From assembly GCA_025362495.1 (NCBI GenBank), contig JANYGI010000216.1, positions 1-52,473 on the forward strand: a stretch of 52,473 nt of DNA, in the 5' to 3' direction. A program made the translations under genes and the position numbers. The DNA comes from Byssovorax sp. Lineage in GTDB: Bacteria; Myxococcota_A; Polyangia; Polyangiales; Polyangiaceae. Within the stretch, counting starts at the first letter, position 1, and each line of letters begins with the position of its first letter. Positions 929 through 33,115 of the stretch are shown here, piece by piece. The notes beneath the pieces are model-generated. The model searched no databases, had not been told where the DNA came from, and saw only the letters and a program-made list of their open reading frames with translations.

Positions 929-1441
929 ATGACGAAGGCCAAAGAGTTCGTAGCAGCGCTGAGAAGCCAGCAATCGGCCCAGCCTGAAGGCGTCGAGGAA
1001 TACTGGAAGAGGCAGAAATCTCTCTGGATCACGGATCTGTCCTCGTTGCGAGCTTCCATTAAACAATGGATGGCTCCGGTCGTTCAGGATCACGCGGCGA
1101 CCGTCGAAGATAAAGGTTTTCTGGCGATGGAGCCTGATCTCGGAGGATACGATGCTCCTGGTCTCGAGCTCATGCTCCTGACGGAGCCGCCCCAGGCGGT
1201 CCTCCTGCGGCCGCGCGGGCTTCGTGTCGTGGGAGTCGTCGAGACGGGCGGAACCCGTGTCGTCGGCGCGAACGGGCGCATCGATCTCGAATGTGGAGTC
1301 AGGCGTGAGATTGTCCTGCGGTTCCGGAAGGACGACGTGACGACCTGGTATTCATTCAGCGGGGGCAAGAAGCGCGAATTCGATGAAGAGATTTTTTTCG
1401 AGCTTCTGGCACGAGTAGCGGATATCCGGGCGGCGTCATGA
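929..1441 (+). CDS. Unknown protein, first gene of a HEPN cassette
   Basis: This 170-residue protein is not one I recognise. The N-terminal 60 residues look helical and charged, with Trp and Lys/Arg pairs (YWKRQKSLW). The middle (about 75-135) alternates hydrophobic and polar residues like a beta-sheet domain (LRVVGVVETGGTRVVGANG, then REIVLRF). The C-terminus is an acidic helix. No signal peptide or membrane segment is seen. The stop overlaps the next ATG in ATGA, so the two genes are translationally coupled. By position it could be an antitoxin or sensor partner of the HEPN protein, but no nucleotidyltransferase (GSxxRG) or other known HEPN-partner motif is present. There is no Shine-Dalgarno sequence before its ATG. 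Confidence 0.6.
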   Translation: MTKAKEFVAALRSQQSAQPEGVEEYWKRQKSLWITDLSSLRASIKQWMAPVVQDHAATVEDKGFLAMEPDLGGYDAPGLELMLLTEPPQAVLLRPRGLRVVGVVETGGTRVVGANGRIDLECGVRREIVLRFRKDDVTTWYSFSGGKKREFDEEIFFELLARVADIRAAS

Positions 1442-1983
1442 CAGAGGCGGTCGATCCCGAGAATGCCTATGAATGGTATCTGCAGCAGATCGATCTGCTG
1501 GAAAGCATGGGTCGCACCGGGGCGCCAACACAGGACCCACACTGTGCGAAGTTTTTCGGCATGCCCTTTGACGACTTCACCGACGCGCTCCGCGATTTGC
1601 GCGACGAGATCGAGCATTCCGCCTACCTGGCCATCGTGTCGTCGAGTGAAGCTCTGATCCAGGTCGACTTCCGGGCTCGAAAGGGCGGTAAGGCGTCTGT
1701 GCCGCTGCAGGGCGAGGCCCGAAGGATGGCGAAAGAGGAGAAGCGCGGTCGGAGGATTGTTCTGGAGGATGTGCTGGAAGCCTGGAAAAGGGTGCCGGAC
1801 GCGCCGGTTCGAGCAATCTCCGATTTTAAGCAATTGCTCCTCCATCGACACTGGCTCGCTCATGGGCGGTACTTCGTGGATAGAGATTCAATTTCAGCCG
1901 ACCCGGGTTTTGCGATTGAGCGACTTCGAAAGCTGCGCACCTCGCTGAACAAGATCGACGTGGCGTTCCCACGCGCTGGCTGA
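1438..1983 (+). CDS. HEPN-domain protein with Rx4H motif, candidate RNase
   Basis: This 181-residue, largely helical, soluble protein carries near its C-terminus RHWLAHGRY (137-145), which gives the R-x4-H motif (R137, H142) of HEPN ribonucleases. The surrounding FRHWLAHGRY-like wording is typical of RiboL-PSP-type HEPN proteins. A conserved-looking SSEALIQVDF helix (69-78) precedes it, as in that family. HEPN proteins with this motif are usually metal-independent RNases in toxin-antitoxin, abortive-infection or RNA-processing systems. The start is fixed by the ATGA overlap with the upstream gene. The function as an RNase is inferred from the motif; the target and the role of the partner are unknown. 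A structural, non-catalytic HEPN protein is the main alternative. Confidence 0.6.
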   Translation: MTEAVDPENAYEWYLQQIDLLESMGRTGAPTQDPHCAKFFGMPFDDFTDALRDLRDEIEHSAYLAIVSSSEALIQVDFRARKGGKASVPLQGEARRMAKEEKRGRRIVLEDVLEAWKRVPDAPVRAISDFKQLLLHRHWLAHGRYFVDRDSISADPGFAIERLRKLRTSLNKIDVAFPRAG

Positions 1984-2205
1984 CGCTCACGAAGGGGTGC
2001 GATGCGCGTGCCTGCGTCCATCTCCGGAAACGCATTGCGCTCGCGGCGGCGCCGAGGCTGCAGACAGACCGTCCACGCGGAGGGGCACTCGCCGGCTGAA
2101 ATCAAACCCCGCTGCCCGCGCTGAAAATTTCACTGGACATCCCTCGATCCCAGTCGGTACGTTCGAGCTGTGCCCGGGCTCACCGGGTGAAGGAGGGAAC
2201 CCAGC

Positions 2206-2982
2206 ATGAATAGCTATTCAGCAGCGGACGTCATCCAGCTGCCGCGACTCCAGGCGTCCGGCGCCATGGCCCTTGGAGGGCAACTGCTCTCCGCCGCCAG
2301 ACCGCACAAGAAGGTGCTCTCGAAGAGCATCGCCAAGGCCCTGTTGGCCTTCGATGCGCAGCACACCGCGCTCAGCGATGCCATTCGCGATCAGGTCTTG
2401 CCGGAGCCCGAGGGAGGTGTCGATACCGTTCAGCTCGATCGCAACCTCGACGGCTGCTGGAGCGGGCTCAACGATTTCTTCACGGCGTTCACCAAGCTCC
2501 CAGGCGTGCCCCAAGCCGTCGAGGCAGCCTCGCTCCAGACTGCAATTCTTCCCGGAGGGCTCAAGTTCATCCTGCTGCCGTATGAGCTGGAGTGGGCCGA
2601 GAGCGAGACTCGCATTCAGCGGATCGAGAAGAACAAGCTCGACACGCGCGTGGAGGCGCTCGGCGGCGGGATCTTCCTCGAGTCGATCAAGAAGGCGCAC
2701 GCCGCCTATGGCAAGGCGCTGGGGATGACGGCTCCCACGACGGCGGGCGCCACCGCGCCGAGCATCCGTGAGCCGCTCGATGCGTTTGCCGCGGCGCTTC
2801 GCACGTACATCGTCAAGGTGATGGGCTCTGTCGAAGACGACGAGCCGGAGACGCAGGCGCTGTCCGACAAGCTGCTTTTGCCGCTCGCCGCCTGGGATAT
2901 CGGGCCGGCGCCGAAGGCGGCTCCTGCCGCGGTGGCACCGGTGGCGCCCGTCGCCGCGCCCACGCCCGCTCCGAACGCCTGA
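2206..2982 (+). CDS. Unknown helical protein with Ala/Pro tail
   Basis: This 258-residue protein is not recognised. An excellent AAGGAGG site precedes the ATG. Residues about 20-210 are predominantly helical, with many Leu/Ala/Lys heptad-like stretches and a conserved-looking GCWSGLNDFF segment near 83-92. The last about 30 residues are a low-complexity tail of alternating Ala, Pro and Val, probably a flexible linker or wall-spanning segment. There is no signal peptide, so it should be cytoplasmic. It stands alone, with a 222-bp gap before it and an inverted repeat after it. A similar Ala/Pro tail ends the otherwise unrelated protein at 14758-15576. Confidence 0.6.
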   Translation: MNSYSAADVIQLPRLQASGAMALGGQLLSAARPHKKVLSKSIAKALLAFDAQHTALSDAIRDQVLPEPEGGVDTVQLDRNLDGCWSGLNDFFTAFTKLPGVPQAVEAASLQTAILPGGLKFILLPYELEWAESETRIQRIEKNKLDTRVEALGGGIFLESIKKAHAAYGKALGMTAPTTAGATAPSIREPLDAFAAALRTYIVKVMGSVEDDEPETQALSDKLLLPLAAWDIGPAPKAAPAAVAPVAPVAAPTPAPNA

Positions 2983-30068: not shown

Positions 30069-30578
30069 CTACTCGGCGCCGACCGCGCGCGCGGGGCGCG
30101 CATCCCCCGTCTCCACCTTCCACTCGCCTCGCGTATGCCGCAGCGTCGCGCGAAGTGGGCGTCGCTCCCTGGAAATCGCAGCGAGCCTGTCCGTCGACAA
30201 CGACATCCCTTCGCGCAAAGCGAGGATCGCCCGCAGCATTCGATCGGCTACAGGACCCACCGGCTCACGATCGTTTTCCCATCGCGACACTTGCGACGAC
30301 GAGACGCCAAGGTGCGCAGCGAGCTCGACCGCGGTCCACACGAGCACATTGCGCAGCACGCGAACCTCGGCGCCCGTGAGGCGGTAGGGCTTCGTGATGA
30401 TCGCCGCCGCGAGCGCGCGATACATTGGCTCCATCGCGGGCCAGACCTCCTCCGTGGCACCGCACGCCGGGCAATGCTCGACGGCGAGATCGGCGATCGT
30501 CACCTCCGGCAGATCGTCGAGCACGCGATCCTCGTGTCGCGTTTCCATGTTCTTGTCGCACTCGACGCATTTGCTCAT
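30069..30578 (-). CDS. MqsA-like antitoxin (YgiT-type zinc finger plus HTH)
   Basis: This 169-residue protein is the likely antitoxin of the adjacent DUF4258 gene. The N-terminal zinc finger has C4, C7, C36 and C39 (KCVEC ... HCPAC), as in MqsA/YgiT proteins. The C-terminal XRE helix-turn-helix is at about 65-120 (TGAEVRVLRNVLVWTAVELAAHLGVSSSQVSRWENDREPVG). A basic, Arg-rich tail follows. Its ATG overlaps the toxin stop (AAATGA), and GGGGGAAG precedes it. Such proteins bind the toxin with one part and their own promoter with the HTH. It is 226 bp from the convergent prmC gene; that gap shows no clear gene. Confidence 0.88.
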   Translation of the reverse strand: MSKCVECDKNMETRHEDRVLDDLPEVTIADLAVEHCPACGATEEVWPAMEPMYRALAAAIITKPYRLTGAEVRVLRNVLVWTAVELAAHLGVSSSQVSRWENDREPVGPVADRMLRAILALREGMSLSTDRLAAISRERRPLRATLRHTRGEWKVETGDARPARAVGAE

Positions 30579-30883
30579 TTCTTCCCCCAAGCAGTGACGA
30601 CCAGGAGCGCCGCCTCCGATCGGAACGCGATCACGACGTACGTCGTCGCGACGCGCACGCGATAGCGCCACGAGCCACGTTCGAGCTCCGCAGGTTCGAC
30701 CATGCCACCGCGAAGCAGTGCGAACACTGCGTCCCGCCTGATCGCATCCTTCGCCATCTCGACCAGCGCGTGCGAGCTGAACCGAACCTCGCCGCTGAGC
30801 ACGATCGTCAGGATCAGACGGCGCGCGTCCGACGGCGAGAGCGGCTCATCGAGCACGGAAGCACCATAGCCGAATTTGCGCAT
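30575..30883 (-). CDS. DUF4258-domain toxin candidate
   Basis: I take the ATG at 30883 (102 residues); a longer frame reaches 30937 without support. The core is VRFSSHALVEMAKDAIRRDAVFALLRGG followed by ELERGSWRYRVRVATTYVVIAFRSEAALLVVTAW: the S-H-A-x-x-x-M motif, then three strands ending in a TxW, the DUF4258 pattern related to RelE-like RNase toxins. The toxin comes first in the operon, as in mqsRA. It is followed with a 4-bp overlap by its antitoxin. RNA cleavage as the activity is inferred from the fold group. Confidence 0.82.
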   Translation of the reverse strand: MRKFGYGASVLDEPLSPSDARRLILTIVLSGEVRFSSHALVEMAKDAIRRDAVFALLRGGMVEPAELERGSWRYRVRVATTYVVIAFRSEAALLVVTAWGKK

Positions 30884-31361
30884 TCCGCAAGCCCGCACCG
30901 CCTCCGTGTCCTCGCGGCAACAGGACGAGGCTCGCACCGCCTGACTCGGCCGCTCGCGAGACCAATGGATGCTGCTTCGTCGTTGCGGTCATGTGACCAG
31001 CTCTTTGTTCGCCTGCAAAGGCTGTCAACCAGCGTCTCGTGGTCGATGGAAGGCATCGCCGTAACACTCGCACCCGCGTCTCGACGCGCGATCCAAACGC
31101 TGCTCGACTTGCCATTTTGATTCCCACCTTTGCGGTGCCTCTTTGCCAGTTGCGGTGCCTGAACGCTCCAGTCCCGCTCGCCGCTCGCCCGGAGCCGCGC
31201 TGCGCCGCCGCCCCGCTCGCCGTCGCCCGCGCCCTTTCTTTTCCGGCCCCCAAGAAAAATGTCCGCCGCGTCGACCCTCGCACGCTGAAGGGCAACCTCG
31301 CGGCGCTCCAGGCGGAGCATCGATCCGCGAGAACTGCCGAGCACCGAGGAACCTGCATCCC
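30884..31361. other. Intergenic region, 478 bp
   Basis: This lies between the toxin-antitoxin operon and the DoxX gene. Open frames are present on both strands, but none has a start region or recognisable product. There is a short direct repeat (TTGCGGTGCCT twice near 31132-31162). I see no ECF-type promoter pair. Confidence 0.5.
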
Positions 31362-31817
31362 GTGAGCGACCAGTCGACACCCGAGGGCATCCTGCACGCT
31401 CTCCCGCTCAGCCCGCGACGCGCCGTGAACACCCGGCTCGTGGGCTACTGGATCTGCACCGCCCTGATCTGCCTCTCCTTCCTTGGCGGCGGGTCCGCCG
31501 ATCTGCTGCGCGTGCCGCAAGTGATCCAGGGCCTCGCCGCCGTGGGGTATCCACCGCACTTTGCCACCCTCCTCGGCGTGTGGAAAATCCTGGGCGTGGT
31601 CGCCGTCCTCGCGCCCGGCTTCCCGCGGCTCAAGGAGTGGGCTTATGCCGGGATGATCTTCGATCTCGTCGGAGCTTCCATCACGCACGCCGTCGTCGGG
31701 GACTCCGACGCCATGATGAGCAACGGGGGCCACATCGTCGTGCCGCTGATGATCGCGGCGCTGGTGATGGCCTCCTGGTGGCTTCGCCCCGCGGGCCGCA
31801 CGCTGAAGCAGGCCTGA
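31362..31817 (+). CDS. DoxX-like membrane protein
   Basis: This protein of 151 residues begins at GTG 31362, with CGAGGA 10 bases upstream. It has four hydrophobic segments: TRLVGYWICTALICLSFLGGGSADL, ATLLGVWKILGVVAVLAPG, WAYAGMIFDLVGASITHAVVG, and HIVVPLMIAALVMASWWLRP. This is the four-helix DoxX/DoxD layout with the typical PPHFATLLGVWKILG segment. The family is involved in redox or thiosulfate/quinone-related membrane processes in some species; the role here is not shown. It lies just upstream of the YCII/ECF pair, on the same strand. Confidence 0.85.
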   Translation: MSDQSTPEGILHALPLSPRRAVNTRLVGYWICTALICLSFLGGGSADLLRVPQVIQGLAAVGYPPHFATLLGVWKILGVVAVLAPGFPRLKEWAYAGMIFDLVGASITHAVVGDSDAMMSNGGHIVVPLMIAALVMASWWLRPAGRTLKQA

Positions 31818-31913
31818 GCAACCCCGGTCACCTTGCGAGAAAAATAGTGGCCGCCGCGCGCGTCGCACGCCTATCGCTCGACATCTGGAGGCCACGAGAC
31901 CCCCGGAGATCGC

Positions 31914-32249
31914 ATGAAAGACTTCCTCTACCTGTTCCGCGCCGCCCCGCAGTCCTATTCTGCCCAGGAGATGCAGCAGCAGATGCAGCTCTGGATGGCC
32001 TGGATGAAGGACCTGACCGACAGCGGTCACCTGAAGAGTCGGGGCGAGATCCTCGACGCCCGCTCCGGCGCGGTCGTCGAGAAAGACGGCACCACCACCG
32101 ATGGGCCGTACACCGAGGCCAAGGACATCGTCGGTGGGTACATGATGGTCAGCGCCGTCGACCTCGATCAAGCCGTCAAGCTCTGCGCGACTTGCCCAGT
32201 CCTCGCGGTCGGCGGTCGCGTCGAGGTGCGCCGCATCATCCGGATGTGA
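31914..32249 (+). CDS. YCII-related (DGPF) protein, ECF42 partner
   Basis: This 111-residue dimeric alpha/beta-barrel protein of the YCII/DGPF group has MKDFLYLFRAAPQSYSAQEMQQQMQLWMAWM followed by DGPYTEAKDIVGGYMMVSAVDLDQAVKLCATCPVLAVGGRVEVRRI. The DGPYTEAKD segment is diagnostic. These proteins are almost always encoded just before ECF42-type sigma factors and are thought to be part of their regulation or output. GGAG lies 7 bases before the ATG. The sigma gene starts 5 bp after its stop. Confidence 0.9.
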   Translation: MKDFLYLFRAAPQSYSAQEMQQQMQLWMAWMKDLTDSGHLKSRGEILDARSGAVVEKDGTTTDGPYTEAKDIVGGYMMVSAVDLDQAVKLCATCPVLAVGGRVEVRRIIRM

Positions 32250-32254
32250 CGCGC

Positions 32255-33115
32255 GTGGACGCCCGAGAGAACCTCTTCCGGCGCGAGTCGGGCCGCCTGG
32301 TCGCGACGCTCACGCGGCTCTTCGGCATCCACAACCTCGCTCTGGCCGAGGACGTCGCTCAGGACACCTTGGTCGCCGCGTTCGAGCTCTGGAAGATCGA
32401 CGGCGTGCCCGAGCACCACGCAGCCTGGCTCGCCGCTGCCGCGAAGAACCGCGCCCTCAGCGTGCTTCGTCGCGAGGGCACCGCCCGGAAATACGCCCCC
32501 GAGCTGACGCGACGGCTGGAGAGCGAACAGGAGCACGCGCCCCTCGTCGACGAGCTCTTCGCGGCTCACGTCATCCGCGACGATCAGCTCCGGATGATCT
32601 TCTCCTGCTGCCACCCGCTCCTCGTGCACGAGGCCCAGGTCGCGCTGATCTTGCGGATCTTGTGCGGCTTCAGCGTCGGCGAGATCGCGAGCGCTTTTAC
32701 CGAGCCGAGCGAGTATCACCTGGAGTCCGCGATAGCCGCGCTCTACGCGGCGGCCCCGAGCGCCGCCGAGACCCGCTGGGCCGACATCGTGTCTCTCTAC
32801 GATATCCTGATGAGGCTCAAGCCATCACCCGTCGTCGCGCTCAACCGGGCGATCGCCGTCGCGCAGAGCCAGGGCCCGGCGCGGGGACTCGAGGCGATCC
32901 AGGCGATCGAGCAGCGCGATCGCCTGGCCTCGTATCCCTTCTACCCTGCGGCCCTCGGCGAGCTCGAGCTGCGGCGGGGCCGTCACGCCGTCGCGCGCGA
33001 TCACTTCGTCGAGGCCGTCACCCTGGCCCGAAGCCCGATGGAGCGGCGCTTCCTCGCGGACCGCGTCGCCGCCTGCGACGACGCCAGTCCCGGGCCCCGC
33101 GGCCAGGAGCGATGA
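32255..33115 (+). CDS. ECF42-type sigma factor with internal in-frame deletion
   Basis: This 286-residue member of the ECF42 family starts at GTG 32255. Region 2 is intact (1-80: FRRESGRLVATLTRLFG, AEDVAQDTLVAAFELWK, AWLAAAAKNRALSVLRR). The region 4 start follows (QLRMIFSCCHPLLVHEAQVALILRILCGFSVGEIASAF, 111-148), but at residue 149 the sequence jumps to TEPSEYHLESAIAALYAAAP and then the C-terminal extension of this family (WADIVSLYDILMRLKPSPVVALNRAIAVA). From the family's usual about 400-420 residues, some 120-130 residues are missing: the recognition helix of region 4 and the first half of the extension (DUF6596). The frame stays open. The protein can probably still bind polymerase core by region 2 but should not recognise a -35 element. 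Confidence 0.85.
   Translation: MDARENLFRRESGRLVATLTRLFGIHNLALAEDVAQDTLVAAFELWKIDGVPEHHAAWLAAAAKNRALSVLRREGTARKYAPELTRRLESEQEHAPLVDELFAAHVIRDDQLRMIFSCCHPLLVHEAQVALILRILCGFSVGEIASAFTEPSEYHLESAIAALYAAAPSAAETRWADIVSLYDILMRLKPSPVVALNRAIAVAQSQGPARGLEAIQAIEQRDRLASYPFYPAALGELELRRGRHAVARDHFVEAVTLARSPMERRFLADRVAACDDASPGPRGQER

Follow-up and report, generated by a model that had tools for sequence, protein, structure and literature searches.

An ECF42-type sigma factor gene without its region 4 recognition helix: an in-frame deletion that is probably a recent loss

Sigma factors of group ECF42 carry a C-terminal extension that, according to passages of two reviews, is essential for their activity and contacts region 4 through its sigma4-proximal part (PMC8999054, PMC9023288). 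Sigma factors without region 4 function when that region is replaced, as described in excerpts on SigO-RsoA (PMC8103513) and on sigma-I with its SigIC domain (PMC10575876). In the parts of a sigma70 survey used here, class H.3 ('r2 + accessory domain') comprises proteins with region 2 and an extra domain and without region 4 (PMC11119718), which means that the bare architecture already exists on paper. A literature search on region-4-less or truncated ECF sigma factors returned nothing that was recognised on ECF42.

The stretch of DNA analysed here (the window, 52,473 nucleotides) contains a truncated ECF42-type sigma factor gene at 32255..33115 (+), the third and last gene of a doxX-YCII-sigma operon. 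The first gene is DoxX-like (31362..31817, +; Pfam DoxX_2, 85.4 bits). It is followed by a YCII-related (DGPF) gene (31914..32249, +; Pfam YCII, 47.2 bits), whose stop codon overlaps the upstream one of two possible sigma starts. Translation from GTG 32255, which aligns with the start codons of relatives, yields 286 aa and translation from the alternative GTG 32246 yields 289 aa; the two starts overlap or closely follow the YCII stop, and the reading frame ends at 33115. The best relatives of the protein are full-length proteins with the ECF42 make-up, and the full-length relatives L004 and L033 show all of Sigma70_r2, Sigma70_r4_2 and DUF6596 in Pfam. The earlier note on this DNA had called the gene an ECF42-type sigma factor, and domain make-up and full-length relatives confirm this. 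Assignment to ECF42 is based on the domain make-up, the YCII neighbour and group descriptions in the published passages (PMC8999054). Judged by sequence comparison, the gene is clearly an ECF42 relative by descent, not a complete member. Divergent from the sigma operon, at 30069-30937 (-), lie two small overlapping genes that resemble a toxin-antitoxin pair, with a weak DUF4258 match (19.4 bits, cut-off 25) and a helix-turn-helix protein.

Region 2 of the sigma factor is intact (32273..32479, +; residues 10-78 of the 289-aa form) and matches Sigma70_r2 with 28.4 bits at a cut-off of 24. A region 4 stub follows (32558..32698, +; residues 105-151), in which the alignment with relatives finds only the first helices. 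The protein then passes over the deletion junction (32698..32699, +) into the distal, TPR-like part of the ECF42 extension, which is intact according to the structure model and fold search (32711..33085, +; residues 156-280). The Pfam search of the window protein found neither Sigma70_r4_2 nor DUF6596, and its list of families was confined to Sigma70_r2 and a weak TPR, with the TPR_12 match below its cut-off.

An alignment with full-length ECF42 proteins, proposed in the earlier note, was made with 44 relatives and fixed the junction at 32698/32699, between F151 and T152. The missing stretch is 414-426 bp, in frame. It corresponds to 138 residues relative to 4 relatives, 139 relative to 19, 140 relative to 20 and 142 relative to one; the 120-130 residues estimated before were too few against every one of the 44. 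The match to the family pattern, formerly placed as far as residue 148, reaches F151 and resumes at T152. The left deletion end lies just before the region 4 recognition helix and the right end near the end of DUF6596; the positions of the recognition helix and of the first helices within region 4 are those we assume from general knowledge. Removed are the recognition helix and the DUF6596 half of the extension, and region 2 and the TPR-like end are kept. Thus an in-frame internal deletion with loss of the recognition helix (no Sigma70_r4_2, a gap in the alignment) and retention of region 2 and the C-terminal end, all claimed previously, were borne out. The extension does resume in frame as stated, but not at its beginning, the DUF6596 half being gone. 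The flanks of the junction each share about 60% identity, in one and the same frame, with the same closest orthologues, so the deletion is more than chance. A search for DUF6596 in the 240-contig draft assembly detected no other copy of the missing segment; the two matches both lie in other ECF42 frames (430 and 438 aa), which rules out that the segment is located elsewhere in the assembly.

The structure of the window protein was modelled with AlphaFold using 31 relatives in the alignment (pTM 0.54). Region 2 was modelled as confident helices (pLDDT block means 81-90 over residues 11-80). The linker and the region 4 stub were modelled poorly (47-72 over residues 81-150, with 47-65 in the stub). 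The C-terminal part reached pLDDT 75-78 up to residue 170 and 92-98 over residues 171-280. Most of the 50 matches listed by Foldseek are TPR domains; the best E value is 0.01 and none lies below 0.001, and ranks 1-2 are labelled TmrC, not TPR.

Matches to the gene were found in 56 of 97 related genomes and in 112 of 377 genomes of the phylum, the own genome included in both counts, and in neither set was the same short form present elsewhere among the matches listed. The best relatives (L004-L010) each match in two pieces separated by about 0.4 kb, the pattern that normal genes should give. A query of 82 residues spanning the junction had a match in 65 of 108 genomes of the family, again including the own genome; among the matches listed it was matched over its full length solely by the window itself. 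The sets of 97, 108 and 377 genomes overlap, and the counts are based on the best matches of each. A pattern scan of the GTDB contig collection recovered at least 586 stretches, 567 of which were confirmed, and the best 80 loci were kept. Both halves of the gene were present in 139 of 142 loci, with 131 distinct in DNA, and a single half in three (L022, L036 and L131). The spacing between the halves was normal (420-462 nt) in 136 of the 139 measured loci and short in three, namely the window, seen twice (L003, L113), and L087. Twenty further matches, picked for short frames (<400 aa) or for matching across the junction position, were also measured, and none had an in-frame short form. They consist of four full-length genes with over-extended matches (L177-L180), nine matches that reach or nearly reach a contig end (L162, L163, L164, L167, L168, L169, L170, L175, L176), four frameshifted genes that have not lost the segment (L166, L172, L173, L174), two with mostly the C-terminal part and away from a contig end (L165, L181), and one out-of-frame internal deletion (L171). 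A common subfamily of the short form is ruled out, as no second instance occurs among the matches listed.

Independent internal deletions were identified in three other ECF42 genes. The gene at L087 4968-5759, in a Verrucomicrobiaceae MAG, is an independent short ECF42 gene of 263 aa, in which region 2 is followed directly by the second half of DUF6596 (Pfam) and the extension. Its deletion is 471 bp long, in frame, and lies between two copies of the 7-base repeat CGCCGCT. The relative G501 has a full-length 441-aa frame with DNA identities of 94% and 92% over two stretches, and in 96 surrounding genomes (70 with a match) no other match listed spans both halves. Since separation, the L087 branch has acquired 18 nonsynonymous and 10 synonymous changes compared with 9 and 13 on the intact branch (259 codons, 5 changes undecided), a trend towards relaxed constraint in the sequence that is not significant (Fisher p = 0.15). 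At L131, about 1246-1910 (-), about 208 residues are lost, and the DUF6596 end that comes after region 2.1 is in another frame; the genome, G054, is listed with 5 contigs and belongs to the same family as the window's genome. At L171, about 1285-2375 (-), the gene has lost about 50 residues, beginning with the recognition helix, and its halves are in different frames, matching L031 residues 4-161 in one and 212-420 in the other. Its genome (G144) is also of the same family. The start of the loss in L171 and the left end of the window's deletion are only a few residues apart. With two deletions in frame (window, L087) and two out of frame (L131, L171), internal deletions arise repeatedly in ECF42 genes; none of these four was seen to be common to a group of genomes. 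On sequence evidence the independent deletions elsewhere look like losses. Damaged copies are likewise not rare in these assemblies, as seen from a stop in L071 and frameshifts in L048, L166, L172, L173 and L174.

The substitution load of the window gene is ordinary. By root-to-tip distance it ranks 14 of 45. The terminal branch of the N part is 0.334 against a median of 0.161 (rank 9), and that of the C part is average (rank 22). Among 76 columns with conservation in at least 90% of relatives, the window shows 6 departures, compared with 5 in L004 and 7 in L116, its nearest neighbours in the tree. Residues 8-54 presumably represent regions 2.1-2.2, the polymerase-binding part, and residues 55-85 regions 2.3-2.4. 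None of the six departures falls within residues 8-54. Three fall within residues 55-85 (P58H, D72S and R78G), of which position 58 is changed in L004 and L116 as well. Relaxed selection in the window gene is not demonstrable, the nearest listed relative, L004, being about 63% identical. The ordinary load and the positions of the departures fit a young deletion, without demonstrating function.

A subgroup promoter motif was derived by reading the sequences upstream of the relatives' YCII genes, and consists of an A-tract, TGTCCG, 15 bases and AACGTC; it resembles the promoters listed for the ECF42 factor RpoE10 of S. meliloti in the part of the source used (PMC6180224). A uniform predicted subgroup promoter precedes YCII in about 30 loci, e.g. 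L118, L035 and L043, and most relatives' -10 boxes read NNCGT[C/T]. Sites selected by their -35 half occur in 38 of 92 loci in the sense and 5 of 92 in the antisense direction, in a set that includes one locus twice (L010 and L079). The corresponding predicted promoter of the window operon lies upstream of doxX at 31252..31288 (+), with an A-tract, the -35 box TGTCCG (31260-31265), a 15-base spacer and the -10 box CACGCT (31281-31286). With a matrix from 26 sites chosen for their CGT core, 31252 (+) scores best of the 104,874 positions in the window (32.5, next 11.6); with a matrix from 42 sites chosen regardless of the -10 box it scores 34.7, next 9.8. It is the sole site in the window that matches the consensus with at most 3 mismatches, which was matched in 10 of 100 shuffles. 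The first pattern used, TGTCG..CGTC from S. meliloti RpoE10, was rejected for this operon, as nothing matched upstream of it; among the loci it matched 19 of 131, against 6 of 131 in antisense. No regulon was found in the own genome, with 4 promoter matches (at most 2 mismatches) against 2 in the reversed control.

The -35 box of the window is perfect. Three positions separate the -10 box CACGCT from AACGTC. Two of them are variable in relatives as well (CACGTC, CACGTT, AACGTT); the change from CGT to CGC is the one present in no relative's site. Among 43 comparison sites, -10 positions 3-5 read CGT in 30 and otherwise in 13 (9 of these in distant relatives), and CGC in none. L042, a full-length relative, has two sites, and one of them is likewise without the CGT core. 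The -10 box of the window hints at decay without proving it. The earlier note had seen no decay in the remainder of the gene; this holds for the frame and the substitution load, not for the -10 box of the operon, which is unusual. The second-best promoter-like score (11.6 and 9.8 with the two matrices) was obtained at 31837-31873 (+), just upstream of YCII and with a broken -35 half. Most relatives carry their promoter just upstream of YCII at the matching position, and 31837-31873 is possibly the relic of an older promoter. In L005 and L007 the promoter is found about 1.04-1.05 kb upstream of sigma, before an extra gene that precedes YCII and is comparable to the window's doxX. The extra gene is presumably a RibD/DHFR-type reductase.

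Taken together, this ECF42 sigma factor was probably inactivated by a single in-frame deletion of recent date, which among the genomes searched is private to this one. Going by the relatives and the passages of the reviews, region 2 of the ancestral protein would have served to bind core polymerase and region 4 to read the TGTCCG -35 box, the DUF6596 part of the extension would have kept the protein in its active shape, and the protein would have switched on its own promoter-doxX-YCII-sigma operon. The surviving protein would be left without the helix that reads the -35 box and without DUF6596 support for region 4. As both the recognition helix and the sigma4-proximal part are gone, it should not activate its own promoter. 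A recent loss is favoured because the short form is unique among the matches listed, because independent deletions elsewhere look like losses and because a part that the reviews describe as required for activity was removed; we infer that activity was lost, that the loss is recent and that the deletion is real and not an assembly error. The unusual -10 box, the low-confidence model of the region 4 stub and the lack of a further copy of the missing segment in the assembly also speak for a loss. Several findings speak against inactivation. The frame is intact, the substitution load ordinary and the polymerase-binding part free of conserved-column departures. The -35 box is perfect, and the full-length L042 also has a site without CGT. 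The chance of an in-frame deletion is 1 in 3, and the deletion of L087 is in frame too, with a nonsynonymous excess that is not significant.

It is unlikely that the short protein is a working region-2/TPR protein, which would contact core polymerase via region 2 and a partner via its TPR end and would either be a dominant-negative decoy or contribute region 2 to a two-part sigma factor, cf. RsoA-SigO. The frame is intact and residues 8-54 show no conserved-column departures, but D72S and R78G alter positions in regions 2.3-2.4 that are conserved in at least 90% of relatives. Both surviving modules are confidently modelled, with the broken region 4 stub and a low-confidence linker persisting between them. 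A second in-frame region-4-less ECF42 gene exists in L087, but there the form is private and the closest relative has an intact gene, and no genome group was seen to keep the short form among the matches listed. The known region-4-less sigma factors function with region 4 replaced, and a stand-alone DUF6596 piece is absent from the assembly. In principle region 2 could still touch core polymerase and hence have a decoy effect; selection for a decoy role has no support among the findings. Of the roles suggested in the earlier note, recent loss is thus favoured, and dominant negative and polymerase-binding regulator gained no positive support.

An assembly or population artefact, in which the full-length gene is present in the organism, or in most of its population, and about 414-426 bp were dropped in assembly, is quite improbable. 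The assembly is a draft of 240 contigs, but the missing segment is on no other contig, and the junction is in frame, for which a random error has a 1 in 3 chance. The relatives listed include no genome of the same genus, and their copies are damaged in other ways (the frameshifts and the stop named above); internal deletions nevertheless occur in other assemblies too, one of them the 5-contig G054. It is highly improbable that in-frame loss of region 4, together with part or all of DUF6596, can turn ECF42 factors in a single step into regulators of the region-2/TPR type, which would hold core polymerase and recognise the -10 box at most, with the window gene (altered -10, D72S, R78G) as one case and L087 as an independent second.

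Should the deletion be a loss, there is nothing unusual in it, and it serves mainly as a warning against taking in-frame loss of a domain for a new function. A clear predicted promoter for an ECF42 subgroup (A-tract, TGTCCG, 15 bases, AACGTC) is a by-product of the comparison. If the short protein works, it would be a natural example of a sigma factor that does not read -35, and would test what the TPR end of ECF42 proteins binds.

Compared with ECF42 factors such as Sven_0747, P. putida ECF-10 and S. meliloti RpoE10, the window gene shares region 2, the distal TPR-like extension and the adjoining YCII gene, and differs in lacking the region 4 recognition helix. The ECF42 extension has about 200 residues, with TPR; its distal TPR-like half is retained in the window gene, and its sigma4-proximal DUF6596 half is absent. 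Ahead of its operon the window has a predicted promoter that resembles the TGTC..CGTC type of these factors, with a perfect -35 and an altered -10 box. To our knowledge, RsoA has no TPR extension. As described in excerpts, SigO-RsoA of Bacillus subtilis has a carrier of region 2 without region 4, like the window, and a partner that supplies region 4, for which the doxX-YCII-sigma operon has no counterpart (PMC8103513). A similar arrangement in the window would need region 4 from another protein. Sigma-I of Bacilli and Clostridia likewise carries a region 2 domain and lacks one for region 4, but in the passages used its SigIC domain reads the -35 box, whereas the window protein has a TPR-like domain and a region 4 stub instead (PMC10575876). 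Class H.3 is defined, in the parts of the survey used, by profile hits, whereas the loss in the window was defined by alignment of orthologues and includes DUF6596 (PMC11119718).
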